In this document: piece after piece, positions 9,678-32,661 of the stretch
Position numbering within the stretch: the stretch's first letter is position 1
Layout: each line of letters opens with the position of its first letter
From: a virus
DNA length: 34,395 nucleotides
IMG/VR virus record: IMGVR_UViG_3300045977_000472
Location: 1-34,395 of that record
Direction: 5' to 3' (one strand)
Notes under the pieces: model-generated
What the model saw: only the letters and a program-made list of their open reading frames with translations
Told to the model about the DNA's origin: nothing
The model's database searches: none
Program-made: the position numbers and the translations under genes

Positions 9678-11162
9678 CTAGCCCGTAAAGGTCGACCGCC
9701 ATCCCCCACCCCCCCGGCCGGCGGTCACGACCAGCGGCGCATCCGGCGTGCGGGCCACGGGCACGGCGCGCGCCACGTCCAGGCCCGACACGAGGAGGTA
9801 GCGGGTGCCATCCATCAGGTGGTCGTCTGTTTTCACGATCCGGCCCTTGGCATCGCGCCTATACAACCGGGCTTCCTTGCGCCAGTTGCTCAGGGGCTCA
9901 AATACCTTCAACCGGCCTTGCGTGAGGCGCTCCAGCACCTGATAAATCCCGGCTTCGACCGCATTGACCGCCACGGAAAGATGCAGCCCGAGATCCTGAT
10001 ACGTCTCCAGCAGCACCACCCCATCACCCTGGCTCCGGCCCCGCGCCGCCGGATCAATGACGCCGGGGATCCAGTCACCCGGCGCTTTACAGGCGGCGGC
10101 ATGCACCGACGGCTCGGCTTCGCCGCGGGAGTGCTCGTGGTACAGATACCAGGTATCCGCCTCGGCATCGTAGGCGCCCCACACGGCAGCGGTGCGGTTC
10201 CAGCCCACATCGAGCGCATAGGCGCGCTTCCAGTGCTTCGGCAGGGCGAACGGCTCCACCAGATAGGCCGATTCCTCCACGGGATAGATGACCCCGGCGC
10301 CAAGCACCGGGATGCCGCGCGTGCGGGCGTCGCGCTGGTAGGCCGGGATGGCGGCCAGCATCTCGGCTTTGGTGGCGGCGTCGAGATGCGGCACATCGTC
10401 CCAGGTAGCATTGCCGATCCACTTGGCGCCCTGGCTCGGCTGCGCCGGGATCTCGCCGTCCGGCAAGAAGTGCAGGACCGTCTCGCTCAACCCCTCCAAC
10501 GGCGTGAAGGTGGTGAGCACCAGGCCGTTGCCCGTGCCCGTGCCGGTGGTATCCATGGTGCGCAAGACACACTCGGTATGGATGTCCAGCGGCGGTTCCT
10601 CGTCTTCCAGGATCACATGCTGGAAGGTGCCTTCAAAGGCGGTCCGCCCTTGCTCGTAATATTTGAGGGTGAGGAGCGAGTGTCCGCCGCTGGCGTGGAG
10701 GATGGTCACGCTGTCGATCAGATCGGCCACACTGCTGGCCGCCTTGGTGGGCGGGCGCACAAAGGTGTCGAGGGGCAGCACGCCGGTGCCCCACTGCCCG
10801 ACCGGCCCGAACAGTTCTTCCTGGACGATCTCTTTGACTTTTTTGCTCGTGGTCCCTGCAGCCCAGGCACGAATAGGCCCCGGAAAGCGCCGCCCAGCCC
10901 ACCAGGCCGGGTACTGGCCGGTGAGATGCACCGCCAGCTCGTAGCAGGCGGCGCGCGTCTTGCCGACCCGGTTGGCGGCGATAAAGAGGCGTTCGCGGTG
11001 GGTGGCGCCGGCAGCGAAGAAGGCCAGGTGTTGCGGATAGTAATGGCGCGCAAAGCGCCCGGTGGCGGGAAAGCGCGTGAGGATCTGGTGCGTGCGCTGA
11101 TAGGCGTCCTCGGCTTCAAGCAGCGCCACCAGTTCCAGTTCCTCAGCCAGCGTCAGGGCCAT
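9678..11162 (-). CDS. terL: Terminase large subunit (packaging ATPase/nuclease)
   Basis: 494 residues from ATG 11162 (P22 gp2: 499); the longer frame upstream lies inside terS. The Walker A motif is AANRVGKT (residues 62-69, Lys68). Walker B is VILEDEE (183-189). LTTFTP (216-221) is the coupling motif. The RNase H-like nuclease begins at YALDVGWN (Asp318), with further acidic positions at Asp370 (GVIDPAA) and in KTDDHLMDGTRY (446-451). The enzyme cuts concatemeric DNA and pumps it through the portal; P22-type terminases do this by the headful. It overlaps terS by 20 bases. Confidence 0.97.
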   Translation of the reverse strand: MALTLAEELELVALLEAEDAYQRTHQILTRFPATGRFARHYYPQHLAFFAAGATHRERLFIAANRVGKTRAACYELAVHLTGQYPAWWAGRRFPGPIRAWAAGTTSKKVKEIVQEELFGPVGQWGTGVLPLDTFVRPPTKAASSVADLIDSVTILHASGGHSLLTLKYYEQGRTAFEGTFQHVILEDEEPPLDIHTECVLRTMDTTGTGTGNGLVLTTFTPLEGLSETVLHFLPDGEIPAQPSQGAKWIGNATWDDVPHLDAATKAEMLAAIPAYQRDARTRGIPVLGAGVIYPVEESAYLVEPFALPKHWKRAYALDVGWNRTAAVWGAYDAEADTWYLYHEHSRGEAEPSVHAAACKAPGDWIPGVIDPAARGRSQGDGVVLLETYQDLGLHLSVAVNAVEAGIYQVLERLTQGRLKVFEPLSNWRKEARLYRRDAKGRIVKTDDHLMDGTRYLLVSGLDVARAVPVARTPDAPLVVTAGRGGGGWRSTFTG

Positions 11163-11514
11163 CGTGGCCGTTCTCGCCCCGTTTCGCCAGGAGCGCGGCA
11201 ATGCGCGCCTGGCGCAGGGTGGCATCGGTGAGGACGAGCGGCTTGTCCGGATCGCCGCTCAGTTCCACGGCTTTCAGTTTGGGGAGCATGCGGTCAAATA
11301 ACGCACTGGCCGCCGTCAGGCGGTCGGCCGTGCTGCTCGTCGGGCTCGTCATGATCGTCGTGAACAGGCGCACCGGATGCGCCATCGCATCGCCCGCGGC
11401 CTGGCTCTCCACATAGTCCCAGAGGGCTTCGCGGGTGCGCACGCTGCATTTATTCGGGGTGCCTTTGGTGCGGCCGCCGGTTTTGGGCGTGCCCGGCTTT
11501 CGTCCACGCGGCAT
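11143..11514 (-). CDS. terS: Terminase small subunit (DNA recognition)
   Basis: 123 residues. The N-terminus PRGRKPGTPKTGGRTKGTPNK is a basic tail typical of terminase small subunits and of related phage DNA-binding proteins; a helical middle and acidic end follow. Its place directly before and overlapping terL is the main evidence. It should bind the packaging start site and recruit the large subunit. In P22 the pac site lies within the small subunit gene; a candidate here cannot be seen by eye. No good ribosome site is present. Instead two direct copies of AGTAGAAAA(C/T) lie immediately before the ATG, making the start region unusually AT-rich. Confidence 0.82.
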   Translation of the reverse strand: MPRGRKPGTPKTGGRTKGTPNKCSVRTREALWDYVESQAAGDAMAHPVRLFTTIMTSPTSSTADRLTAASALFDRMLPKLKAVELSGDPDKPLVLTDATLRQARIAALLAKRGENGHDGPDAG

Positions 11515-14779: not shown

Positions 14780-15097
14780 ATGAGACGACAACGCGACCTG
14801 ACCCCCTGGCCCCTGGCCACCCCAGAGCAGGCCAGGCAGTACACCGTCGAATATAGCCGCACCACAGCGGGAAGCGCCCTCTTTGAGGCGGGCGTCCCCC
14901 TCGCTGCCCTCCCCGCCCGGCTGGAGATCCGGCTGGAATCGATCCGCGTCGATCCCGTCGGGGAGGCGACCGGGATCGTGTGGACGCGCCTCGATGGCGG
15001 GCCCTGGATCCGTGAGGGGGGCTATCTATTGAGCAAGCGCTTCCGCACGGAACCACCGACGGGGCCCTCCGGCCCCGCAGAGGAGACGCGACGATGA
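14780..15097 (+). CDS. Unknown small protein (105 residues)
   Basis: ATG 14780 lies behind CGAGGAGACAACG. The protein has a basic start, a helical segment (EQARQYTVEYSRTTAGSALF) and a beta-rich end (LEIRLESIRVDPVGEATGIV, then WTRLDGGPWIREGGYLLSKRF). Its TGA overlaps the ATG of the next gene (ATGA type, 15094), so the two are translationally coupled. No family recognised. Confidence 0.65.
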   Translation: MRRQRDLTPWPLATPEQARQYTVEYSRTTAGSALFEAGVPLAALPARLEIRLESIRVDPVGEATGIVWTRLDGGPWIREGGYLLSKRFRTEPPTGPSGPAEETRR

Positions 15098-15330
15098 GAA
15101 CGATTCGATTATCGGATGGCACGGAGCTGGGGACCAACGAGCACGACGGCGGCGTGTTTGCCCGCCGCCAGGATGGCACTTGGCAACAGTGGACGGGCAC
15201 GGGCCAGACGCCGTGCTTTCGCAGTCCCCAGCAGTTCTGGCGCTGGCTGCAACGGCACTATGATGGGTTGGAGGGCTGCCGCCTGCAGACCAGTCGCGGA
15301 TGGTGAAGCGTGGCAACGGCCACGAGAGAC
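15071..15330. repeat. 260-bp direct repeat, copy A
   Basis: Matches 15981-16240 at an offset of 910 bases with only two differences (15114 G to A, silent; 15141 G to T, Glu to Asp). It covers the ribosome site, the 70-residue gene and 24 bases past its stop. Confidence 0.97.
15094..15306 (+). CDS. Unknown 70-residue protein, copy A of a duplicated gene
   Basis: Starts ATGAGAACG at 15094 with GAGGAGACGCGACG upstream. It opens with a beta hairpin (MRTIRLSDGTELGTNEHDGG, then VFARRQDGTWQQW) and ends with a Trp-rich helix (SPQQFWRWLQRHYDGLEG). Copy B at 16004-16216 differs only by Glu16 to Asp. The hairpin with Asp-Gly turns and a short helix resembles small toxin or inhibitor folds but matches no family that I can name. 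Confidence 0.7.
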   Translation: MRTIRLSDGTELGTNEHDGGVFARRQDGTWQQWTGTGQTPCFRSPQQFWRWLQRHYDGLEGCRLQTSRGW

Positions 15331-15928: not shown

Positions 15929-15980
15929 GGCTGCGCTGGCGCTGTAACCCACGGGCGCTAACCCCCACGCGGGGCCCCGG

Positions 15981-16240
15981 GGCCCCGCAGAGGAGACGCG
16001 ACGATGAGAACGATTCGATTATCAGATGGCACGGAGCTGGGGACCAACGATCACGACGGCGGCGTGTTTGCCCGCCGCCAGGATGGCACTTGGCAACAGT
16101 GGACGGGCACGGGCCAGACGCCGTGCTTTCGCAGTCCCCAGCAGTTCTGGCGCTGGCTGCAACGGCACTATGATGGGTTGGAGGGCTGCCGCCTGCAGAC
16201 CAGTCGCGGATGGTGAAGCGTGGCAACGGCCACGAGAGAC
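15981..16240. repeat. 260-bp direct repeat, copy B
   Basis: Second copy of 15071-15330 with two base differences. The left flank (GGGGCCCCGGGGCCCCGCAG) is also similar to that of copy A, so the event may have used GC-rich hairpin flanks. Confidence 0.97.
16004..16216 (+). CDS. Unknown 70-residue protein, copy B of a duplicated gene
   Basis: Identical to the product of 15094-15306 except Asp16. The reading frame, ribosome site and stop are intact. One change is silent and the other conservative, so either the duplication is very recent or both copies are kept under selection or gene conversion. Two unrelated small genes lie between the copies. Confidence 0.7.
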   Translation: MRTIRLSDGTELGTNDHDGGVFARRQDGTWQQWTGTGQTPCFRSPQQFWRWLQRHYDGLEGCRLQTSRGW

Positions 16241-19721: not shown

Positions 19722-20786
19722 GTGAGCGTCAAAGTCATGGCCTATGTGTGGGACCATAGCCAACAGACGGGCACCAATCTGCTCATGATGCTGGCCATCG
19801 CCGATATGGCCAACGATGCCGGACGGTGCTGGCCGACTATGGACCGGCTGGCGCAAAAATGCCGCATGGAGAGACGCCAGGCGCAATATCTGATTAAACA
19901 TCTGGTCGAAGTCGGTGAACTGCTTGTTGAGCATGGCAGAGGACGTGGGTATCCGTCGATCTATGTCGTAAAGGGTGCAGCCGAGTGCACCCTTTCTGGA
20001 CCTGCCGAAGAAAAGGTGCAGTCCAGTGCACCCTTTCTCGAAGAAAAGGTGCAGTCCAGTGCACCCTTTCCAGAGATGAGCAACGAAAAGGTGCAGTCCA
20101 GTGCACCCTTTCTCGAAGAAAAGGTGCAGTCCAGTGCACCCTTTCCAGAGATGAGCAACGAAAAGGTGCAGTCCAGTGCACCCTTTTCCGCTGTCAACCA
20201 GGAATTGTTACAGATTCAGGATCTTCAAGATCTAAGACTAAAGACAAGATCTAAGACAAGAAAAGATCCTAAGCAGCCGATACCTCCTCCTCCCTCCTCC
20301 TCCGAGGAGGCGATAGAGCTGGCGACGATTACCAGCGCAGAAGCGTTTGTGGCCCTATACAACGCGAATATCCCCCCAGGCATCCCCATGGCCAAAACCC
20401 TGTCACCAGAGCGCCGTCAGCGCATTGAGAAGCGTCTCAAGGACTTTCCCGACCGCCTGTTCTGGCTGACCTGCTTTCGCGCTCCTGCGAATTCTGCCTT
20501 TCTCCGGGGAGAACGCAATGGGCCAGGCCATCCACGATTCAAGTTCACTCTGAACTTCCTCCTCAGCAAAAAAGACGGCATCGAAAACTGTGTGAAAGTC
20601 TACGAAGGCAATTACGCCGATGATCCTCCACAGGAAGCGAGCCAGCCAGACAACCAGGAGGCGATGGCCGCCCTGAGTCCCCGCATGCAAGACCTGACGC
20701 GCCAGGCGCAACAATCCGCCCAGCGCATGAAAAACGATCCCCGCTGGAATCCAGCACTGCGAAAGGATGTGCATGAACAGCCCTGA
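19722..20786 (+). CDS. Replication initiator with origin iterons inside the gene (lambda O-like arrangement)
   Basis: 354 residues; GTG 19722 follows a GGTGGAG site. The N-terminus is a winged helix-turn-helix (MLAIADMANDAGRCWPTMDR, then LAQKCRMERRQAQYLIKHLV and GELLVEHGRGRGYPSIYVV), as in phage replisome organisers. It then reads through six DNA iterons as a repeated EEKVQSSAPF peptide (residues about 84-155). A Lys/Arg-rich linker and Pro/Ser stretch follow, then a C-terminal helical domain (LSPERRQRIEKRLKDF onward), which by analogy would contact the helicase loader. It is followed at once by the loader-like gene. The order initiator with iterons, then loader, mirrors lambda O and P. Confidence 0.85.
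   Translation: MSVKVMAYVWDHSQQTGTNLLMMLAIADMANDAGRCWPTMDRLAQKCRMERRQAQYLIKHLVEVGELLVEHGRGRGYPSIYVVKGAAECTLSGPAEEKVQSSAPFLEEKVQSSAPFPEMSNEKVQSSAPFLEEKVQSSAPFPEMSNEKVQSSAPFSAVNQELLQIQDLQDLRLKTRSKTRKDPKQPIPPPPSSSEEAIELATITSAEAFVALYNANIPPGIPMAKTLSPERRQRIEKRLKDFPDRLFWLTCFRAPANSAFLRGERNGPGHPRFKFTLNFLLSKKDGIENCVKVYEGNYADDPPQEASQPDNQEAMAALSPRMQDLTRQAQQSAQRMKNDPRWNPALRKDVHEQP
19970..20275. other. Candidate replication origin: six iterons and AT-rich flank
   Basis: Six copies of AAAAGGTGCA-GTCCAG-TGCACCCTTT-like elements begin at 19970, 20011, 20044, 20086, 20119 and 20161. Each has TGCACC/GGTGCA arms; the first is a perfect 10-bp inverted repeat (19970-19979 with 19986-19995). The last five are spaced 33, 42, 33 and 42 bases, about three and four helical turns. 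A purine-rich, GC-poor stretch follows (20203-20275) with three AGATCTTCAAGATCT/AAGATC-like elements, a likely unwinding region. Iterons inside the initiator gene next to an AT-rich flank are the lambda-type origin layout. Confidence 0.82.
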
Positions 20787-23480: not shown

Positions 23481-24992
23481 TCAACCAAACAGCCCCAGTT
23501 GCCGTCCCTCCTGCAGTACACAGTGGGGGCTCGCCCACAGCCGCTCGCGGTGCTGCTGCGAGCTGCCGTCGATGTTGCCGTAGCCGCCGCGCAGGAAGCC
23601 CTCCGTGTACCATGTGTGCACCGTCCAGCCGTGCGCTTCCAGCGCCGCGTGTTCGGTGTCATACCCGGCCAGCACAATGCGGGTACGCTTCTCCTGGCCC
23701 GCCTCCACGCACCAGGCGCGCACGGCCGCCGTGACGTCCCCGTCCTGCTGGTACAGTATGTCGCTGCGTTCCTTGGGGCTGTACGGCGGGTCGAGGAACA
23801 CGCCGCAGACGCCCTCCCCCTGGCGCACATTGAGGGTGTACATGGCGCCCGTGGTACAGACGCGGCTCCAATCGCCGTTGACGATGCGCACATGCCGCAG
23901 GCGAGCCGAGAGCCAGCGAAACCAGCGCCGCAGCTCGGGCATGACGAGCGGGTGAAACTCCGGTTCACTGGATAGGGCTCCAGTGCAGGCCTCCCCAACC
24001 CCAGGCTCGCGCAGCCCGGCATGGTTGACGCCACTGGATGAAGCTCCAGTGCAGGCCTGGCCGTTGTCGCTCAGAGCCTGCCCTGGACTCGATCCAGGGT
24101 GCGGGCGGTTGCGCCACACGCCCGGCTCGCGCAGCTGCGGGCGGTGCACGCCCCGGCCGTTGTCGCTCAGGTGCGGGCGGTCGCGGCTCACGCCCGGCTC
24201 GCGAAGCCCGGCATGGTGCACGCCCCGGCCGCCGTCGCTCAGGTGCGGCAGGTCGCGGCTCACGCCCGGCTCGCGAAGCCCGGCATGGTGCACGCCCCGG
24301 CCGTTGGTGGTCAGGTGCGGCAGGTTGCGCGTGACGCCCGGCTCGCGCAGCTGCGGGCGGTGCACGCCCTGGCCGTTGTCGCTCAGGTGCGTCCTCTGGC
24401 GCGTGATGCCCGGCTCGCGCAGACCGGCATGGTTGACGCCAAGGCCGTTGTTGCTCAGAGCCTGCCCTGGACTCGATCCAGGGTGCGGGCGGTCGCGGAA
24501 CACGCCCAGCTCGCCCGTGCCGCGCTTGACCAGGCGCCCGCTCACCGGGTCCGCCGTCCAGGGCCCCACGCCATGAAACGCGCCAATCTGGCAGCACATG
24601 GCATAGAGCCACCAGCCCGCCATCTGCGGGTCGCACCACTCCGGCGAGCCCGCCAGCAGGTCGAGCATGCCGCTCCCGGCCCACTCCAGGAGCGCCGCCT
24701 GGCGGGCCTGTTTGCACACCTCCGAGACCGGCCAGGAACACGCCTCAGCCGTCGCCTCAGGCTGCCACTGCATGGCGCGCCAGGCATTAATCACCAGGCC
24801 ATCGGCATCGTTGATCGTCTCCGAGTAGTACGGGCGGTTGCACGGGTGCGGGCGCTCCAGCAGCACGGCCAGGGAGCCCGCAAACGGCTCGATGTAATGC
24901 ACGGGATCCCCCAGCAGACGCCAGACGAGTGGCGCCGCCTGGCGCTTGCCGCCGAAGTAGGGGAAGGGGGCTTTGGTGTATGAGGTCAGCAT
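23481..24992 (-). CDS. DNA adenine N6-methyltransferase (D12/Dam class) with repeat-expanded middle
   Basis: 503 residues; ATG 24992 has GGAG upstream, and the longer frame lacks family sequence. It has FPYFGGK (residues 10-16, SAM-binding motif), EPFAGS (35-40) and DPPY (401-404), the catalytic adenine-methylase motif, followed by SPKERSDILY. The layout matches the phage methylases that open with APFPYFGGK. Residues about 170-342 are an insertion of 24-residue repeats (LREPGVxRxxPHLSDNGRGV). Members of this family often have Gly-rich repeats there, but here the repeat is exact at 72 bp and holds in-frame REP-like palindromes (GSSPGQALS). The enzyme may protect the phage DNA from host nucleases. 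It faces the early operon. Confidence 0.92.
   Translation of the reverse strand: MLTSYTKAPFPYFGGKRQAAPLVWRLLGDPVHYIEPFAGSLAVLLERPHPCNRPYYSETINDADGLVINAWRAMQWQPEATAEACSWPVSEVCKQARQAALLEWAGSGMLDLLAGSPEWCDPQMAGWWLYAMCCQIGAFHGVGPWTADPVSGRLVKRGTGELGVFRDRPHPGSSPGQALSNNGLGVNHAGLREPGITRQRTHLSDNGQGVHRPQLREPGVTRNLPHLTTNGRGVHHAGLREPGVSRDLPHLSDGGRGVHHAGLREPGVSRDRPHLSDNGRGVHRPQLREPGVWRNRPHPGSSPGQALSDNGQACTGASSSGVNHAGLREPGVGEACTGALSSEPEFHPLVMPELRRWFRWLSARLRHVRIVNGDWSRVCTTGAMYTLNVRQGEGVCGVFLDPPYSPKERSDILYQQDGDVTAAVRAWCVEAGQEKRTRIVLAGYDTEHAALEAHGWTVHTWYTEGFLRGGYGNIDGSSQQHRERLWASPHCVLQEGRQLGLFG
23966..24099. repeat. REP-like palindromes inside the methylase gene (right group)
   Basis: CACTGGA-TAGGGC-TCCAGTG (23966-23985), CACTGGA-TGAAGC-TCCAGTG (24032-24051) and CCCTGGA-CTCGA-TCCAGGG (24081-24099), the first two followed by CAGGCCT. 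All are read through in frame. A further copy of the third lies at 24465-24483. Confidence 0.85.
24120..24483. repeat. 72-bp tandem repeat in the methylase gene
   Basis: The anchor GCCCGGCTCGCG recurs at 24120, 24192, 24264, 24336 and 24408, an exact 72-bp period, with partial units on either side. The units are 24 codons, so the frame is kept. Divergence among units is mainly in the variable third, alternating AGCTGCGGGCGG and AGCCCGGCATGG types. The left end carries the REP-like palindrome 24465-24483. Confidence 0.95.
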
Positions 24993-25493: not shown

Positions 25494-26135
25494 ATGGCTT
25501 CTCGTGATAGTACGCTCTGTCTGTGCGGTTGTCAGGAACTTTGTGGGCCTGGAAGCCAATGGCGTCCTGGTCATAGCACACGTGCGCGGGCGCTCCGGCC
25601 TCTGGAAGAACGCTTTTGGGCGAAAGTGCAGAAAACTGCCACCTGCTGGCTGTGGACAGGTGCCAAAAAAGAATGGGGCTACGGGGTCATCAACTCCCAG
25701 AGGAATGGACCGCTTCTCCGTGCCCATCGCTATGCGTATGAACTCCATTATGGACCAATCCCCGATGGCCTTTGGTGCCTGCATCGCTGCGACGTGCCCC
25801 GTTGTGTCAGGCCAGACCATCTCTTTCTCGGCACCAGCAAAGACAACACCCAGGATATGATGCAGAAAGGCCGCCATCTCGCACAGAGCCATCCTGAGGA
25901 ATTTTTCTCCCGGTGTAGTACCGGACAACGGACCAGATGGCGCGATCACCCAGAATCGATCCGGCGTGGGGACCACCATCCCACCGCCAAAGTGACGGCT
26001 GAACAGGTACGGGTCATTCGACAACGCCATCAGTCTGGGGACATCTCCATAGCTGCTCTGGCTCGCGAGTTTGGGGTCAGCGAGAGTGCTATTCGATTCA
26101 TAATCCAGCGAAAAACCTGGCGGCATATTGTTTAG
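25494..26135 (+). CDS. HNH endonuclease with C-terminal HTH (homing-type)
   Basis: 213 residues. A Cys-rich head (LCLCGCQELCGPGSQW) leads to the HNH domain: CWLWTGAKKEWGYG, LLRAHRYAYELHYGPIPDGL, then LHRCDVPRCVRPDHLFLGTS, with His97, Asp100 and His109 in the active-site hairpin and DNTQDMMQKGRH after it. The C-terminus (HPTAKVTAEQVRVIRQRHQS, then IAALAREFGVSESAIRFI) is a DNA-binding HTH. This is the plan of free-standing HNH homing endonucleases of phages. It has its own promoter and lower GC than its neighbours, which suggests recent arrival. Its stop overlaps by four bases the end of the converging lipoprotein gene. Confidence 0.9.
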   Translation: MASRDSTLCLCGCQELCGPGSQWRPGHSTRARALRPLEERFWAKVQKTATCWLWTGAKKEWGYGVINSQRNGPLLRAHRYAYELHYGPIPDGLWCLHRCDVPRCVRPDHLFLGTSKDNTQDMMQKGRHLAQSHPEEFFSRCSTGQRTRWRDHPESIRRGDHHPTAKVTAEQVRVIRQRHQSGDISIAALAREFGVSESAIRFIIQRKTWRHIV

Positions 26136-27529
26136 GGGCTACAACGTCCTGAATCAGGAAAGGTCAGCGACCAGATCGTCAGCCGTCCCGTCTCGTTGCC
26201 ATGGGCGTACAGCCGCAACTGGTGCGTGTCCCGCAGCCACGCCCGGTCCCACGCCACGTCGTACGGCCCGTCCTCCAGCGCCAGCGGCCATAGCGTCCAG
26301 GTCTGCCCGCCATCGGTCGAGACATGGATCCGCAGCCCGGACGACACCGCGATCCAGCGCCCGCGCCAATCGCGAGAGACCAGCGAGGGCGAATAGTCCA
26401 GCACCCGCGGCGGCGCCGTCCAGCCCGTGGCGGGCTGGGTGATATACCCGCGCTTGATGCCTTTGCTGCTGTCGCTGGCATTGGGGAACACGACGAGCGT
26501 TGGCTGCTGCTGCGTGTCCACCGTCAGCGCCACATGCCCGTCATAGTAGCCCACCGCGCCGGCCTGCTCGAACCACGCGGGGCCACTCGCCACCTCGGAT
26601 TCCTGTACCCCCAGCGGCAGGGTCAGGGGTGACCCATCGCTGCGCTGCCAGCTCGTGCCGTGATCCGCACTGATCGCATAGGTGACCGCATTGGGATGCG
26701 CAAAGCAGGCCTGCCCGCCATCGTCCTTGGTGTACTGGTTGCACCAGACCCAGGCCGCATGCAACCGGTTCTGCGGATCGCCGGCCAGGCGCAGGCCGAT
26801 CGGCAGCTTGCCCGGCTCCGTGGCCCAGGGGCGGATCCCCGCCACCCGCGTCCAGGTCCCGGTGGCGACACTGTAGCGCGCCAGGCCCGCCGACCATTGC
26901 CGGTCGTGAAACGCCGCATCACAGATCAGGCACTCGCGGTAGGCGATAAATAGCGTGCCGTCCTGCGTCGTGGCAAAGTGCGGGTAGGTAATCTGGTTGC
27001 CGGGCAGCGCCGCAATGCCGGGCTCGTTGACGGTCCAGTTGGTGGCACACGTCCCCGTACAGCCGCCGTCGGCCGGACTCGAGGCGCCGGGACTGGTGCC
27101 CGCATCCTGGCCCTTGAAGACCATCGTCTGGACGCTATGGGGCTGTGTGCTCATGGCGTATTGCCAGGGCGTGTCGTGCATGTTGAAGGCCGCGTGCACG
27201 TAGCCCTGCGGGTCGAGCCCCAGGGAGCACTGATTGTGGAACTTATCGGCTCTGGTCGCGGCGGCAAGCACCGTCGGCGGGCTCCACTGTCCGGTGGTGG
27301 GCTCGTAGCGCGTGACCACGGTCTCAAGGCTGGGCGTGATGAAGCAGGCATAGGCGGCGCCCTCCGGGCCACTCACCAGCGGCGTGCCAAAGCGCGGCGC
27401 GTTGGTCGCGTGGACGGCGAAGCTCCCGAGTGGCGCGGCGCAAAACGGCGGCGCGGGGGCCTCACGTGGGGCACGGTGCACGCAGGAGGTTAGGAGGAGC
27501 GCGAGGAGCAGCAGCATTAGGCGTCGCAC
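26132..27529 (-). CDS. Secreted sialidase-like (BNR/Asp-box) lipoprotein
   Basis: 465 residues from GTG 27529, chosen because AAGGAG lies seven bases upstream and Arg-Arg gives a proper signal-peptide start; ATG 27517 is the alternative. MRRLMLLLLALLLTSC is a lipoprotein signal with the lipidated Cys at 16. The rest is a beta-propeller-like domain with Asp-boxes SADHGTSW (about 286-293) and STDGGQTW (about 403-410), as in sialidases and other BNR-repeat enzymes. Catalytic residues of true sialidases were not located. A lipoprotein in a phage late operon suggests a surface change of the lysogen or superinfection exclusion, not a virion part. It overlaps the previous gene. Confidence 0.78.
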   Translation of the reverse strand: MRRLMLLLLALLLTSCVHRAPREAPAPPFCAAPLGSFAVHATNAPRFGTPLVSGPEGAAYACFITPSLETVVTRYEPTTGQWSPPTVLAAATRADKFHNQCSLGLDPQGYVHAAFNMHDTPWQYAMSTQPHSVQTMVFKGQDAGTSPGASSPADGGCTGTCATNWTVNEPGIAALPGNQITYPHFATTQDGTLFIAYRECLICDAAFHDRQWSAGLARYSVATGTWTRVAGIRPWATEPGKLPIGLRLAGDPQNRLHAAWVWCNQYTKDDGGQACFAHPNAVTYAISADHGTSWQRSDGSPLTLPLGVQESEVASGPAWFEQAGAVGYYDGHVALTVDTQQQPTLVVFPNASDSSKGIKRGYITQPATGWTAPPRVLDYSPSLVSRDWRGRWIAVSSGLRIHVSTDGGQTWTLWPLALEDGPYDVAWDRAWLRDTHQLRLYAHGNETGRLTIWSLTFPDSGRCSP

Positions 27530-27732
27530 GGCGGGACTCCTTCGGCGGGGCGAAAGGGACAATCGAGCACGCAATACTCCGACCGGGCGTAGCGGCAGTC
27601 CGGGCCCACGAAGCCACACTGGTCGCGCAGGTAGGCCATGGCATCGTCCAGGGTCATGGTCAGGTCCAGTTGCCGCAGCCAGATCAGCTCCTCGTAGAGC
27701 CGGTGCATCAAGAAGCGGATGGTGGCGTCCAT
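27517..27732 (-). CDS. Small Cys-containing protein (71 residues)
   Basis: ATG 27732 directly follows the previous stop; its own stop overlaps the lipoprotein start. A helical first half (MDATIRFLMHRLYEELIWLR, then TLDDAMAYLRDQ) and a Cys-rich end (CGFVGPDCRYARSEYCVLDC, then PPC), with five to six Cys, could hold a metal or disulphides. No signal peptide. Overlap on both sides marks it as part of the operon. Confidence 0.6.
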   Translation of the reverse strand: MDATIRFLMHRLYEELIWLRQLDLTMTLDDAMAYLRDQCGFVGPDCRYARSEYCVLDCPFRPAEGVPPCDA

Positions 27733-27975
27733 TTAGCGCTCCTCCGCGCGGGCGCAGTCGCAGCGCAGGGCCAGGTCGAGTTGGGCTTTGTGGGCGGTCT
27801 GGAGTTCCTCCCACAGGGTCTGATTCACCGCATGCACCCGGCGCAGTTCCTGGAGCGCGAAGTGCCCAAACAGGCCCCCGATGACCAGCATCAAGAGCAA
27901 CGTCACACTCGTGGCCCGATCGGTGACCTCCAGGATCGTCTGCAGCCAGCCGCGCGCCCGCTCGGGCGTGGCCAT
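27733..27975 (-). CDS. Membrane-anchored coiled-coil protein (80 residues), possible spanin-like
   Basis: ATG 27975 with GGAGG upstream, overlapping nothing but adjacent to the previous stop. A short charged head, a membrane span near residues 20-42 (ATSVTLLLMLVIGGLFGHFA) and a charged helical tail (LQELRRVHAVNQTLWEELQT, then AHKAQLDLALRCDC). This is the outline of an inner-membrane spanin (Rz) or a holin accessory; no embedded Rz1-like lipoprotein is seen. Position after the signal-peptide membrane protein suits a lysis or envelope module. Confidence 0.6.
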   Translation of the reverse strand: MATPERARGWLQTILEVTDRATSVTLLLMLVIGGLFGHFALQELRRVHAVNQTLWEELQTAHKAQLDLALRCDCARAEER

Positions 27976-27977
27976 GG

Positions 27978-28514
27978 CTAGTCCTCCAGACTGCGCCCGT
28001 AGAGTTTCCGCGTCACCCCCCACAGCAGGCGCCGGCAGGGCCTGGCCTCCCACAACAGATAGCCGGCCAGCCAGTACAGCATACAGGAGAGCACCCAGCT
28101 CCCCACGTCCCAGCCGAGCTGCCACACACTCCCCGCCAGTCCCAGCAGCGGCAGCGCCACCGAGGCGAGCACCGCGCCGCTTCCCGCGCCCCGCGTCTCC
28201 TGGCGCGGCCCGCCCTGCTGCGTGGCGGCCTGGATGGCCTGGCGCCGCGCCGCATCGCCGGTGAGATACGCTTCCGCGACGCTCCCGGCCTGGCGGCGCA
28301 GCCCTTGATCGCCCAGCCCGCGCAGCAGATTGCCGGCTTCGCGCTGCACATACGCCTGCACGTCTTCGGGGCTGGCGGGCGCCTCCAGGGTCCCCACCAC
28401 CGCCGTGCGCAGCGCCTCATAGAGCCCGTCCGAGACCTCCACCTTGAGCGTCACCGCGCCGGCCGCACAAGGCAGGAGCAGCGCCAGTCCCAGGACGCCA
28501 GCGAGTCTCCGCAT
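27978..28514 (-). CDS. Exported protein with signal peptide and two membrane spans
   Basis: 178 residues; ATG 28514 has AGGAGG five bases upstream (GTG 28520 is rejected). The signal peptide is MRRLAGVLGLALLLPCAAGA. A soluble helical part (LYEALRTAVVGTLEAPASPE onward) follows, then two hydrophobic segments (AVLASVALPLLGLAGSVWQL and VGSWVLSCMLYWLAGYLLW) and a basic tail with RRLLWGVTRKLYGR. No known family. It is just below the secreted beta-helix gene, so both may act in the envelope. It could be the missing holin-type protein or an exclusion factor. Confidence 0.65.
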   Translation of the reverse strand: MRRLAGVLGLALLLPCAAGAVTLKVEVSDGLYEALRTAVVGTLEAPASPEDVQAYVQREAGNLLRGLGDQGLRRQAGSVAEAYLTGDAARRQAIQAATQQGGPRQETRGAGSGAVLASVALPLLGLAGSVWQLGWDVGSWVLSCMLYWLAGYLLWEARPCRRLLWGVTRKLYGRSLED

Positions 28515-28524
28515 AGCCACCTCC

Positions 28525-30585
28525 TTATTGGACCGTCCGGCCCACTTCGTACCACGTCGTCCCGTAGAGTTCCAGCGTCAGGGTCCCCGTCGCCACGGTG
28601 CCTGGAGCCCAGGTATTGGCGTCGCTGCCGGCATTGGAGAGATTCATGTTGCCGCCCTCCTGAAACACCGGCGTATTGCCCGCCACTTTGAGAAAGCGCA
28701 CCTGCGCCCCACTGCGGCAGTGCGGACAACTGATCATCGTCACCGTGGCGCTGCCGGTGAGGTTAAAGGTGTTGCCATCGGTGGGCAGCGTCAGGGTGGG
28801 CGCCAGCACGATGGCGGCGCCGCTACTGTGGCTCACCGTCCGCCCCATGACGACGCGATCCATGGCGGTAATCAGGCCGGTGTAATAACACGCATCCTGG
28901 ATCGGCGTCGCCACCGTGGCCGGATCAAAGAAGTTCCCCATGACGCGCAGCCCCTTGGCGTCAAAGGTGTCGCGGCACCCTATCCCGACCAGACCGCTAG
29001 CGCCTAAGCCGCCCTCGACATAATTGCCCTCGACCGCGATGGAGTGGGTGTCGGTGCTGGTATCGACGTAAAACGTATAGCCCGCCTTCTGGCCGAGAAA
29101 GACATTATTGGCGAACGTGATCGCCTGCGCCCGGCCGCCCGGGTCGCCGACGCCATTGCCGAACAGAATGGCGACATCGTCGGCGTCCAGCAGGTCGTCC
29201 ACCGCGAACCAGGACGCTTCCACCCGGCCGCCACGCGGGTCCGCGTCAAACTGCATGGCGTACTTGGAGATGCCTTCAAAATAACAGCCGGTGCACGAAA
29301 ACCCCCGCAGCGCGTGGCCAACAAACATGCCAATCTGGCAGTTGCCGGCCTGGCCATCGAGGATGGTCACCGCCTGCAAGCGGCTCCCCGTGCCAAAATC
29401 CTGTTCGCCAATCTGCCAGCACGTATCGAAGCCCTTGGCCGAGACGTTGCGCACATCGACCATGCCGCCGGTGGTGGTGGTGTTGGACAGGTAGAGCCCG
29501 CGCCCGGTGCTCCGGCCCTGCGGCACCACCGACTGATACTCGATAAACACCTGCGTCAAGTCCACCACAAAGGTATTGAGCCACTTGAGCCCGGAGCCCG
29601 TCTGGCTCTTTTGCAGCAGGTACATTTCGCGCATCCCGGCGCCATTGTTGGCGCCGTCAATACTCACCAGGTACTGCCCCGGACTCGTCCCCACCACCGA
29701 CAGACGCTCAAGGCGCAAATGTCTGAGGGCATTGGGGGCCCCGGCGCCGGCCCCGGTGAAGGCGTTGATACACGGCTGCGTGGCATCCACGCACTCCAGC
29801 ACGGTGCGCTCGTACTGGCGCGGTTCCGTGGCCGTCTTAAAGCGCATCGGCCCATCGCCGAGCACCAGGAGATAGCCCTGGTGCTCGATGGCCTGGGGGG
29901 CCGCAGCGTTGAAGGTGGCGTGATAGTGCAGCCACAGGGCGCCGGTTTTATAGCAGCCGCCAGGCGGGGTCGGCAGGTACACCTCGCGATCCCGCCACAG
30001 CCCGGCATTGATGGCGGCTTGCAGCCCGGCGGTGTCCACCGTCTGGCAATCGCCGGTGACGCCGTAGAGCCCGGAGAGGGCATTGACCGGGCCTCTGTAC
30101 GGCGTATCTGGCCGCAGATCCGCCACCTGACTGAGCACCCCACCACTGCTGGTGGCCCCGGCCAGGAGCACCGTGCCCTGCGGCAGCACCGGGCGGGTGG
30201 TGGTGGTGTGCGTCCAGACGTAGTGCGTGCCCACCACCCCGGTCCACCCCGGAGGCGTCACCGCGACATCGGCGCGGCCGGCCAGCCAGATGAGGCCATC
30301 GGCGGCGACAAGGGGGATGCTGCGCGCCGTCGGTTCGGCCAGGTAGCGCAGGCGCGTGACGGGCGCCGTCTCCAGGGCATAGGCGCGGCACGGCGGCACC
30401 TGGAGGCTCCCCCCAACGACGGTGGGGAGACAGCCCTCAGCCACGTAGCCGGAGGCAAAATCGCCCACGTAGGCTTGCATCTCCACCTGGGCATCGGGCG
30501 TGCCATGGGTGGTGAGCCCCCAGGCGGGGAGCACCAGCAGCAGTCCGGCACTGGACCACGAGACCATGAGCAGCAACCAGAGCAT
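28525..30585 (-). CDS. Signal-peptide-bearing beta-helix (tailspike-like) protein
   Basis: 686 residues from ATG 30585, with AAGGAG eight bases upstream; the upstream extension overlaps the tail fibre gene. The start (MLWLLLMVSWSSAGLLLVLP) is a convincing export signal, which virion tailspikes never need. The middle has regular short strands with Asn and Gly turns (LYLSNTTTTGGMVDVRNVSA, then FDTCWQIGEQ and GNYVEGGLGASG), the look of a right-handed parallel beta-helix such as pectate lyases and tailspikes. The C-terminus (GSATVTMISCPHCRSGAQVR to TLTLELYGTTWYEVGRT) is a phage tail-tip fold. Around 14 Cys also suit secretion. It may be an exported glycan-degrading enzyme made from a tailspike. 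Confidence 0.75.
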   Translation of the reverse strand: MLWLLLMVSWSSAGLLLVLPAWGLTTHGTPDAQVEMQAYVGDFASGYVAEGCLPTVVGGSLQVPPCRAYALETAPVTRLRYLAEPTARSIPLVAADGLIWLAGRADVAVTPPGWTGVVGTHYVWTHTTTTRPVLPQGTVLLAGATSSGGVLSQVADLRPDTPYRGPVNALSGLYGVTGDCQTVDTAGLQAAINAGLWRDREVYLPTPPGGCYKTGALWLHYHATFNAAAPQAIEHQGYLLVLGDGPMRFKTATEPRQYERTVLECVDATQPCINAFTGAGAGAPNALRHLRLERLSVVGTSPGQYLVSIDGANNGAGMREMYLLQKSQTGSGLKWLNTFVVDLTQVFIEYQSVVPQGRSTGRGLYLSNTTTTGGMVDVRNVSAKGFDTCWQIGEQDFGTGSRLQAVTILDGQAGNCQIGMFVGHALRGFSCTGCYFEGISKYAMQFDADPRGGRVEASWFAVDDLLDADDVAILFGNGVGDPGGRAQAITFANNVFLGQKAGYTFYVDTSTDTHSIAVEGNYVEGGLGASGLVGIGCRDTFDAKGLRVMGNFFDPATVATPIQDACYYTGLITAMDRVVMGRTVSHSSGAAIVLAPTLTLPTDGNTFNLTGSATVTMISCPHCRSGAQVRFLKVAGNTPVFQEGGNMNLSNAGSDANTWAPGTVATGTLTLELYGTTWYEVGRTVQ

Positions 30586-30611: not shown

Positions 30612-32162
30612 TTACCCGACCGTCCAGTCGGCGACAGCGCTGGCGGTTATGGCGGTCCACCCCGTCGTGCCGGTGGCCATGAGGGTGAGAAAACTCCCCA
30701 CCACCTGGCTCTGGCAATAGCCGCCCGCCGTACTGACCAGCCCGACAATCCGGATCGTCGCCCCGGCGGGCGCCACAATGCGGGTGCCGCGCGGGCTCGG
30801 ATGGAAATTGAGCACCGTGTAGTGCAGGCCGTACGCCGCGGTCGGCAGCGTGAGGTAGGTGATTTCCGTCGCATTGTTGCCCACCACGGCGATGCCGGTA
30901 TTGTCCGCCGTGAGGGCATAGGGCGCCCCGACCCCGTAGGTGGTGAGCACAAAGCCGTGCTTGCGGGCCAGCAGGCCGGTGCCAATCGTGGTCACCGCGC
31001 CGCTGGCGCTGCGCACTTTGAGCGCCCCTTGCCCCGCCGCGCCGTCATGATTTTCCACCCAGATCTGGACCGCATTGGCGGGATGCGCGGCGGTCGGGCG
31101 CCCGCCCAGGGGCAGCACCAGGCCGCTTTGCAGGCCGGTGCCCGGAACCACGGCGCCCAGCAGCAGGTTGCTCGCCGCGTCCAGGCTGAGGCCGGTACTC
31201 TCCAGGTTGAGCCCGTCCGTGGCCCAGCGCGGCACCCTGAGCGGCGTGCCCGCCGGGATTTTGGCCTCCAGCGCCGTGATCTGGCTGGTGTGCGTCGCGC
31301 CTACGGCCTCCAGCGCCGTCACGTCCGCCCGCACCGGATCCAGTTGTTCTTTGAGGCGCAGCGGCGAGACGATGCGGCTGTTGTCGGTGCTGTTCCCTTC
31401 CGCCGCATTGGCAACTTCCGCAATCCCCGCCGTCGTCTCACTCGCCGGGGGTTGCGGGGTGGGCGGGATCGGGTCCCCGGCGGACCCCGGTAGGAACGTC
31501 ATGCCCGCAGTCGTCGGGGCCGAAAACTGAAAAAAATACCCCGTCACATAGACCGCCCCGGTGCCATCGAACAGCCCCCCGTAGGCCGTGAGCGTCACCG
31601 CCCCGGGCAGCGGTTGCGGCTGCCCGCCGTAGGCGAGAAAGCCCCCGGCGGTGGTCGTCGTGGGGGCAGTGAGCGCCTCCAGGATCCCCCACGCATCGGG
31701 CAGGTCGGGATTGCCGACGCCGATCGCGCTGAGCCCCTGACTGGTCCCAAAGCTCTCACTGATGCACGCCGTCAGCGCGATGCCCAAGACGTCCTGGGGG
31801 AAGACGCCGGCACTCGCCTGCGCGCTGCCGGCGGTGGGGCGGATGAGCACCGTGTTGGTCCCCATGCCCAGGCCCGGCAGCCCGGTGCTGCCGCTCCCGG
31901 AGACGGGGTCGAGCAGCCACTGCTCCACGTCGTCTTTGTCCGTGAGGAGCAATTTGTAGGCCGCGCCATCGTAGTAAAACTCCGCTTCGCCGCTACTGTC
32001 CAGGATGACCGGATTTTCCAGCGGCGTGGTCAGCTCGGCATCGGCATACAGGGCGTGGGGGGTGCTGGTGCCCGACAGATAGGCATAGACCTTGCCGCCG
32101 GCTAACGGCTCGCCGTCGCGATCGAAGGCGCGAAAGATCGGGTAGGTGGCTAATTGGCCCAT
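30612..32162 (-). CDS. Tail fibre protein with podophage head-binding-like N-terminus
   Basis: 516 residues; ATG 32162 with GAGGG upstream. The N-terminal module (YPIFRAFDRDGEPLAGGKVY, AYLSGTSTPHALYADAELTT, PLENPVILDSSGEAEFYYDG) is the well-known podophage adaptor that attaches fibres or spikes to the tail. The middle carries AGIAEVANAAEGNSTDNSRI, the recurrent phage tail-fibre repeat, then a short coiled coil (ADVTALEAVGATHTSQITAL). The C-terminus is a beta-rich tip ending in SAVADWTVG. It recognises the host surface. It lies where P22 has its tailspike gene 9, after the regulatory island. Confidence 0.87.
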   Translation of the reverse strand: MGQLATYPIFRAFDRDGEPLAGGKVYAYLSGTSTPHALYADAELTTPLENPVILDSSGEAEFYYDGAAYKLLLTDKDDVEQWLLDPVSGSGSTGLPGLGMGTNTVLIRPTAGSAQASAGVFPQDVLGIALTACISESFGTSQGLSAIGVGNPDLPDAWGILEALTAPTTTTAGGFLAYGGQPQPLPGAVTLTAYGGLFDGTGAVYVTGYFFQFSAPTTAGMTFLPGSAGDPIPPTPQPPASETTAGIAEVANAAEGNSTDNSRIVSPLRLKEQLDPVRADVTALEAVGATHTSQITALEAKIPAGTPLRVPRWATDGLNLESTGLSLDAASNLLLGAVVPGTGLQSGLVLPLGGRPTAAHPANAVQIWVENHDGAAGQGALKVRSASGAVTTIGTGLLARKHGFVLTTYGVGAPYALTADNTGIAVVGNNATEITYLTLPTAAYGLHYTVLNFHPSPRGTRIVAPAGATIRIVGLVSTAGGYCQSQVVGSFLTLMATGTTGWTAITASAVADWTVG

Positions 32163-32207: not shown

Positions 32208-32237
32208 TTGACATAAGAGCTACATATACGCTACAAT
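32208..32237 (+). promoter_or_regulatory. Promoter for the Arc-like gene, probably leaderless
   Basis: TTGACA (32208-32213), an 18-base spacer and TACAAT (32232-32237). The start codon lies seven bases beyond the -10 at 32244, where transcription would begin, and no ribosome site precedes it, so the message is probably leaderless. Confidence 0.72.
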
Positions 32238-32243
32238 CTCAGT

Positions 32244-32390
32244 ATGGAACGCAAAACTTTAACCAGTATCCGCTTGACCCCAGAAGCCAGACGGCTCCTG
32301 AAACTGTTGTCCGCCAAGCTCGGCGTGTCCCAGGCGGCTATTCTGGAATTACTCATTCGCCACAAAGCCTCTGAAGAACGGATTACATGA
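32244..32390 (+). CDS. Arc/Mnt-like ribbon-helix-helix regulator (48 residues)
   Basis: ATG 32244. A strand (KTLTSIRLTP) followed by two helices (EARRLLKLLSAKL and SQAAILELLIRHKA) gives a minimal ribbon-helix-helix, the size of P22 Arc (53 residues). P22 carries arc and mnt between gene 16 and tailspike gene 9; this gene lies in exactly that place, between the ejection gene and the tail fibre, on the opposite strand. It may repress the divergent tail fibre gene and its own promoter. No antirepressor is recognised. Confidence 0.78.
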   Translation: MERKTLTSIRLTPEARRLLKLLSAKLGVSQAAILELLIRHKASEERIT

Positions 32391-32418
32391 ACCCTTTTAC
32401 TCCTGAAAGGAGTCGTCT

Positions 32419-32661
32419 ATGTTGTCCACCATCCTGCTGCTTGTGCTCGCCGTCTGCGGGTTCCTGTGGCTCTGTGCCCTCGCCATCATGGCTTTCAACT
32501 GGCTGCTGAATCTACCGTATGAGCGGGCGCGCAAGGCCCACAACCGTGCGCGTGAAGCGATGCTGCTCGCTTACTCTTCTTCGCCGGACTATGCCAGCGA
32601 TCAGGCCTGGTTTCCCAGGAGACGCCATGGCGTTTCTGCTCGCCGTCGTTTGCAACCTTAG
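32419..32661 (+). CDS. Small membrane protein (80 residues)
   Basis: ATG 32419; the ribosome site AAAGGAG sits in a hairpin (ACTCCT-GAA-AGGAGT, 32399-32413), which could limit translation. One N-terminal membrane span (MLSTILLLVLAVCGFLWLCA, then LAIMAFNWLL) precedes a basic cytoplasmic-type tail (YERARKAHNRAREAMLL). No family. In P22 this region encodes SieA-type exclusion; a similar membrane role is possible here. Confidence 0.62.
   Translation: MLSTILLLVLAVCGFLWLCALAIMAFNWLLNLPYERARKAHNRAREAMLLAYSSSPDYASDQAWFPRRRHGVSARRRLQP

Follow-up and report, generated by a model that had tools for sequence, protein, structure and literature searches.

Why should a phage encode, directly behind its tail fibre, a group of proteins that appear destined for the host envelope, one of them built like a tailspike? 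The question is raised by the IMG/VR virus record IMGVR_UViG_3300045977_000472, a 34,395-base fragment that was analysed over its whole length and is referred to here as the window. The presence of portal, scaffold, coat, Hc3 closure and needle genes identifies the virus as a P22-like podovirus, and the integrase and repressor-like genes, which accompany an O-like gene, imply that it is temperate. A contig, L010, joins both ends of the window via ~2.4 kb of ejection proteins, among them an SLT transglycosylase that is truncated at the window's right end; the genome is thus ~36.8 kb, of which the analysis covers almost the whole. Genome contigs were searched with the BNR and portal sequences and no relative was found.

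The genes of the locus are as follows:

25494..26135, plus strand: HNH endonuclease (phrog_1872, E 3e-31; HNH_3, E 1e-13)
26132..27529, minus strand: P0004, a 465-aa lipoprotein, BNR_4 beta-propeller lyase-like, with a GTG start
27517..27732, minus strand: a 71-aa soluble Cys-rich protein, between P0003 and P0004
27733..27975, minus strand: P0003, 80 aa, with a single span
27978..28514, minus strand: P0002, a 178-aa signal-peptide protein
28525..30585, minus strand: P0001, 686 aa, tailspike-like
30612..32162, minus strand: tail fibre/anchor, 516 aa (phrog_26190, E 4e-10), the operon's first gene

A first-pass annotation had described four successive late-strand genes at 26132-30585. Their place and strand are correct, but the genes number five, the 71-aa protein having been overlooked. 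From the fibre through P0001, P0002, P0003 and the 71-aa protein to P0004 the gaps are 26, 10, 2, 0 and -13 nt, with good ribosome sites, and the codon usage of P0001, P0002 and P0004 is consistent with coding. The HNH endonuclease gene, on the opposite strand, stops inside the lipoprotein stop region and so marks the cassette boundary. At the other end, the fibre shares its N-terminal domain with P22-like tailspikes: residues 8-87 show ~48% identity to the tailspikes of podophages of Vibrio, Shewanella and Rhodoferax. Strongly hydrophobic N-termini were seen in five of the ~45 genes in the window and four of the five belong to the operon downstream of the fibre, so the clustering of exported genes is not due to chance.

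No promoter-like site of note was found on the minus strand of the operon interior, and a strong promoter at 32208-32237 reads away from the operon. As the genes share an operon with the fibre and have no internal promoter, late-gene co-expression is the simplest interpretation. This bears on lysogenic conversion, in which expression of the cassette from the prophage would alter the surface of the lysogen. The integrase and repressor-like genes of a temperate phage are in keeping with that idea, and lipoprotein conversion genes are known from phages. However, the genes trail the fibre in a late operon that shows no promoter-like site inside, and the strong promoter at 32208 faces the opposite direction. 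Late (lytic) conversion is therefore more likely, and we consider lysogenic conversion very improbable.

The N-terminus of P0004 is MRRLMLLLLALLLTSC, and the lipobox cysteine is kept in all three homologues. The initial description of a lipoprotein with sialidase-type Asp-boxes was right about the lipid anchor and wrong in detail about the enzyme. The sole family above its cut-off was BNR_4 (PF15892; E 4e-28, 99 bits against a gathering cut-off of 27.3), which was matched in three of seven records. A typical sialidase (GH33) was rejected, since there is one convincing Asp-box stretch (E 4e-4) and no sialidase-family match, and the protein groups with lyases and GH145. By sequence its nearest solved relatives are GH145 and PL42. 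Foldseek ranked GH145, PL42, PL24 and PL25 in that order, followed by sialidases and lectins, using a weak, low-confidence model (pLDDT 42) that served as support only.

FoRham1, the PL42 enzyme, is itself a BNR_4 protein, in which His85 acts as base and acid, assisted by His105, Tyr150 and Arg166 (PMC8377490, PMC10951650). Residues H98 and H118 of P0004 align with His85 and His105 and are invariant in the three homologues, and Y182 and R198 correspond to Tyr150 and Arg166 with the same 16-residue spacing, as placed by the GH145 alignment and not by superposition. Asp83, which belongs to the His-His-Asp motif of FoRham1, aligns to K96, with D95 adjacent, so this Asp is not kept. P0004 thus shares membership of BNR_4, both histidines and the spaced Tyr and Arg with GH145 (BT3686), PL42 (FoRham1) and PL24/25, but unlike these it is a phage lipoprotein and does not keep the Asp83 and Tyr202 positions.

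Identity of P0004 to its homologues is 89% in the related sequence L002 and 75% in the lambda-like siphovirus L003, with dN/dS of 0.14-0.21. This is purifying selection and shows that P0004 is a maintained functional gene. The lipoprotein gene of L003 adjoins a different fibre and is accompanied by a P0003-like gene and also by a methylase. To judge from these comparisons, P0004 moves between phage types, podo- and siphoviruses, together with P0003-like genes. Two further lipoprotein matches in INPHARED, MT836317 and MT839554, were rejected as phage relatives because their polysaccharide-utilisation genes suggest Bacteroides loci, though both are labelled Bacteriophage sp.; they look like mis-binned Bacteroides chromosome. 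The L002 lipoprotein gene contains low-complexity inserts of the CCTGTGTCC type at 9926-9973 and ~11200-11280, and the window copy is without them.

The smaller proteins were largely as first described. P0002 has a textbook signal peptide, a ~90-aa soluble domain and hydrophobic C-terminal spans, and searches for homologues found none. P0003 has one span and a coiled-coil-like C-terminal half, consistent with the membrane-anchored coiled coil originally proposed, and has homologues in L002 (47%) and L003 (31%). The 71-aa protein is 92% identical to the L002 copy, with dN/dS of 0.06, and 63% identical to a copy in another siphovirus, L014.

The position of these genes is that of a lysis cassette in related phages. 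In the Rhodoferax phage P26218, the Xanthomonas phage PBR31, ctfPj964, ctTUS972 and H6/1 the tail fibre or spike is followed directly by holin, lysozyme or M15 peptidase, and spanin/holin genes. No endolysin was recognised in the window by Pfam and PHROGs over ORFs of at least 105 aa or by six-frame searches with Phage_lysozyme and Amidase_2, nor was one seen among the ORFs scanned in the related records G001 and G002; almost every candidate membrane protein of the window is encoded in the cassette. The early suggestion of an unfamiliar lysis route thus gains some support from the position and the lack of a recognisable endolysin, short of proof. P0002 and P0003 would then be holin- or spanin-like, and the exported enzymes would help to open the envelope in place of a classical endolysin. 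However, P0002 did not align to 3TM holins and was rejected as one, and P0003 had no Pfam or PHROG holin match. We know of no BNR_4 lyase or pectate-lyase fold that cuts peptidoglycan, which also counts against a lysis module. Finally, a divergent endolysin may have been missed, so the lack of a match does not prove its absence. Taken together, an unrecognised lysis module is rather unlikely.

P0001 is the protein on which the interpretation turns. It begins MLWLLLMVSWSSAGLLLVLPAWG, a hydrophobic core with an AWG cleavage-like site at residues 21-23. The first 30 residues are uncharged, D31 being the first charged residue, and a shuffle test gave p ~0.002 both for this hydrophobic start and for that of the homologue in L002 (7231-9444). 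The latter, ~40% identical over the first domain, is also hydrophobic at its start, ending PAWS. There is no basic residue in the n-region and this is a real weakness of the export reading. The signal peptide claimed for P0001 in the first-pass annotation finds support in its core, its AWG site and its retention in the homologue, but not in the n-region, and from its sequence it is best called a plausible but atypical export signal. An internal start that would delete the signal was rejected, because conservation does not extend to Met 36, whose GGTGGAG is too near.

Residues ~29-157 of P0001 are homologous to the L002 protein (hhalign 98.8%). Beyond ~157 no homology remains except for a short F-C-x-G-C-x-F-E-G stretch, the C-terminal part of the L002 protein being different, and further searches with the spike N-domain gave no homologue besides L002. 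After the conserved domain a right-handed beta-helix is probable. The matches of P0001 to Pect-lyase (PF12708, E 0.055) and of the L002 homologue to Beta_helix (PF13229, E 0.006) are both sub-threshold, and so favour the tailspike-like build that had been assigned to P0001 while falling short of proof of the beta-helix. A single-sequence AlphaFold2 model (pLDDT 32) was unusable.

An export signal on a tailspike had been called very unusual. This was overstated: such proteins are uncommon but not unique, as similar genes are carried by Bcep781, BcepC6B, PBR31 and the Shewanella phage vB_Sb_QDWS. Gp49 of Bcep781 (~690 aa), found among the tail genes, carries the note 'possible tail fiber; possible signal peptide domain'. 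In an unannotated 687-aa ORF of vB_Sb_QDWS (L034, 3692-5755) a beta-helix of pectate-lyase type (PF12708, E 2.6e-5) comes after a textbook signal peptide; the ORF adjoins a tail-fibre gene near the endolysin. Bcep781 gp49 is a partial relative of it with the same arrangement of signal peptide and beta-helix. Both differ from P0001 in having a basic n-region, other hosts and another virion type, and no sequence relation to P0001 is detectable. In BcepC6B gp19, annotated as tail fibre, and its homologue orf035 of PBR31, a signal peptide is found on a fibre-like protein encoded directly between the fibre/spike and lysis genes, but here collagen-like or fibre repeats take the place of a beta-helix and a normal lysis cassette comes after the gene. 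Gp24 of P26218 also has a signal peptide and lies between spike and lysis genes.

There are precedents for the lipoprotein as well. PBR31, a related podophage, encodes a lipobox-bearing GDSL/SGNH esterase, gp40, close to its spike and lysis genes; the authors of that genome remarked on the signal peptide of gp40 and on its resemblance to tail-associated hydrolases (PMC10975493). It is unlike P0004 in activity, fold and strand. In T5 Llp and Cor a lipoprotein gene adjoins the receptor-binding gene and the product blocks the receptor (PMC9586334); T5 Llp, whose gene lies downstream of the receptor-binding one, is small, FhuA-binding and non-enzymatic, whereas P0004 has 465 aa, is enzyme-like and is encoded downstream of the fibre. 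The resemblance of all these precedents to the window cassette is one of layout, not of demonstrated sequence kinship with P0001. Signal-bearing tail-like proteins thus recur in several cultured phages, and the open literature searched, where no study of exported tailspikes was found, seems to offer no explanation for them.

The full 687-aa ORF is missed in the public record of vB_Sb_QDWS (OK094664), where only a truncated version of it and an ORF on the opposite strand are annotated. OP650936, 'Hujiaoplasma phage zrk29-1', with Tenericutes given as host, equals that record in length and carries an identical spike gene, and one of the two host labels is therefore probably wrong.

P0001 could alternatively be an ordinary virion tailspike in a branched receptor-binding apparatus, docked on the preceding fibre via its N-terminal domain. 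The hydrophobic start would then be a docking segment or be removed, and only the lipoprotein and the small membrane proteins would be active in the envelope. A conserved N-domain with an exchangeable C-terminus is typical of virion receptor-binding proteins, and the conserved first domain and replaced C-terminal part in L002 follow this pattern. The gene lies directly after that of the fibre, the n-region has no basic residues, and similar proteins of isolates are annotated as tail fibre or structural. Against this stand the 30 uncharged residues with a plausible cleavage site, which are retained in the homologue with no conserved internal start, and the textbook signal peptides of the counterparts in cultured phages. 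The Cys content of P0001 (2.0% vs 0.4-0.5% in portal, coat and fibre) points the same way, but the 1.7% reached by a beta-helix of L003 that lacks a signal makes this a weak argument. The modularity of P0001 would suit a receptor-binding protein of the virion as well as an exported enzyme with a receptor-dependent target. On this evidence a virion spike seems unlikely.

The explanation we prefer, with a confidence that stops a little short of even, is that the cassette encodes late-expressed, envelope-targeted proteins that act on host surface polysaccharide. The conserved lipoprotein of a glycan-lyase superfamily, the signal-like start of the spike and the isolate precedents lend support to the earlier idea of an exported set acting on envelope glycans. 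P0004 would be placed in the outer membrane and cleave a uronate-containing host glycan. The signal-bearing P0001 would reach the periplasm or cell surface and bind or cut the receptor glycan, while P0002 and P0003 might aid export, anchoring or lysis. What the phage would probably gain is the stripping of receptor glycan from the producing cell and from its debris, so that progeny are freed and do not re-adsorb and superinfecting phages are kept out. The most likely function would be late modification of a host surface glycan, by way of receptor destruction or progeny release. Such lytic conversion would share its purpose with T5 Llp but be enzymatic, resembling receptor-destroying enzymes in its means.

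A broader possibility, which we regard as doubtful, is that tailed phages of several unrelated groups Sec-export non-virion copies of spike- or fibre-like proteins, with genes placed between those for fibre and lysis, and that these copies work at the surface of the cell that makes them as receptor-destroying or progeny-releasing factors, joined here by a lyase-like lipoprotein and displacing the classical endolysin cassette. If P0001 and its counterparts are exported, these spike-like proteins would be host-surface tools and not virion parts, and the odd label 'tail fiber, possible signal peptide', which keeps turning up in annotations, would be explained. Phages would then have a counterpart to influenza neuraminidase, and some annotated depolymerases would be secreted enzymes.

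Several other features of the window were recorded. At 32208-32661 (plus strand), facing away from the fibre, a strong sigma-70-like promoter precedes genes for a 48-aa ribbon-helix-helix-like protein and an 80-aa single-span protein; G001 and G002 have similar pairs of a regulator and a membrane or lipoprotein near their tail genes. In the early region a 271-nt direct duplication (15060-15330 and 15970-16240, 98%, spacing 910) carries a duplicated 70-aa gene. The O-like replication gene contains 75-bp tandem repeats (19970-20186) with the palindrome-like core GTGCAGTCCAGTGCAC, probably an iteron origin. Within the D12 adenine methylase gene there is a 72-bp tandem repeat in five copies (24098-24458), and a repeat insert likewise interrupts the homologous methylase of L003.
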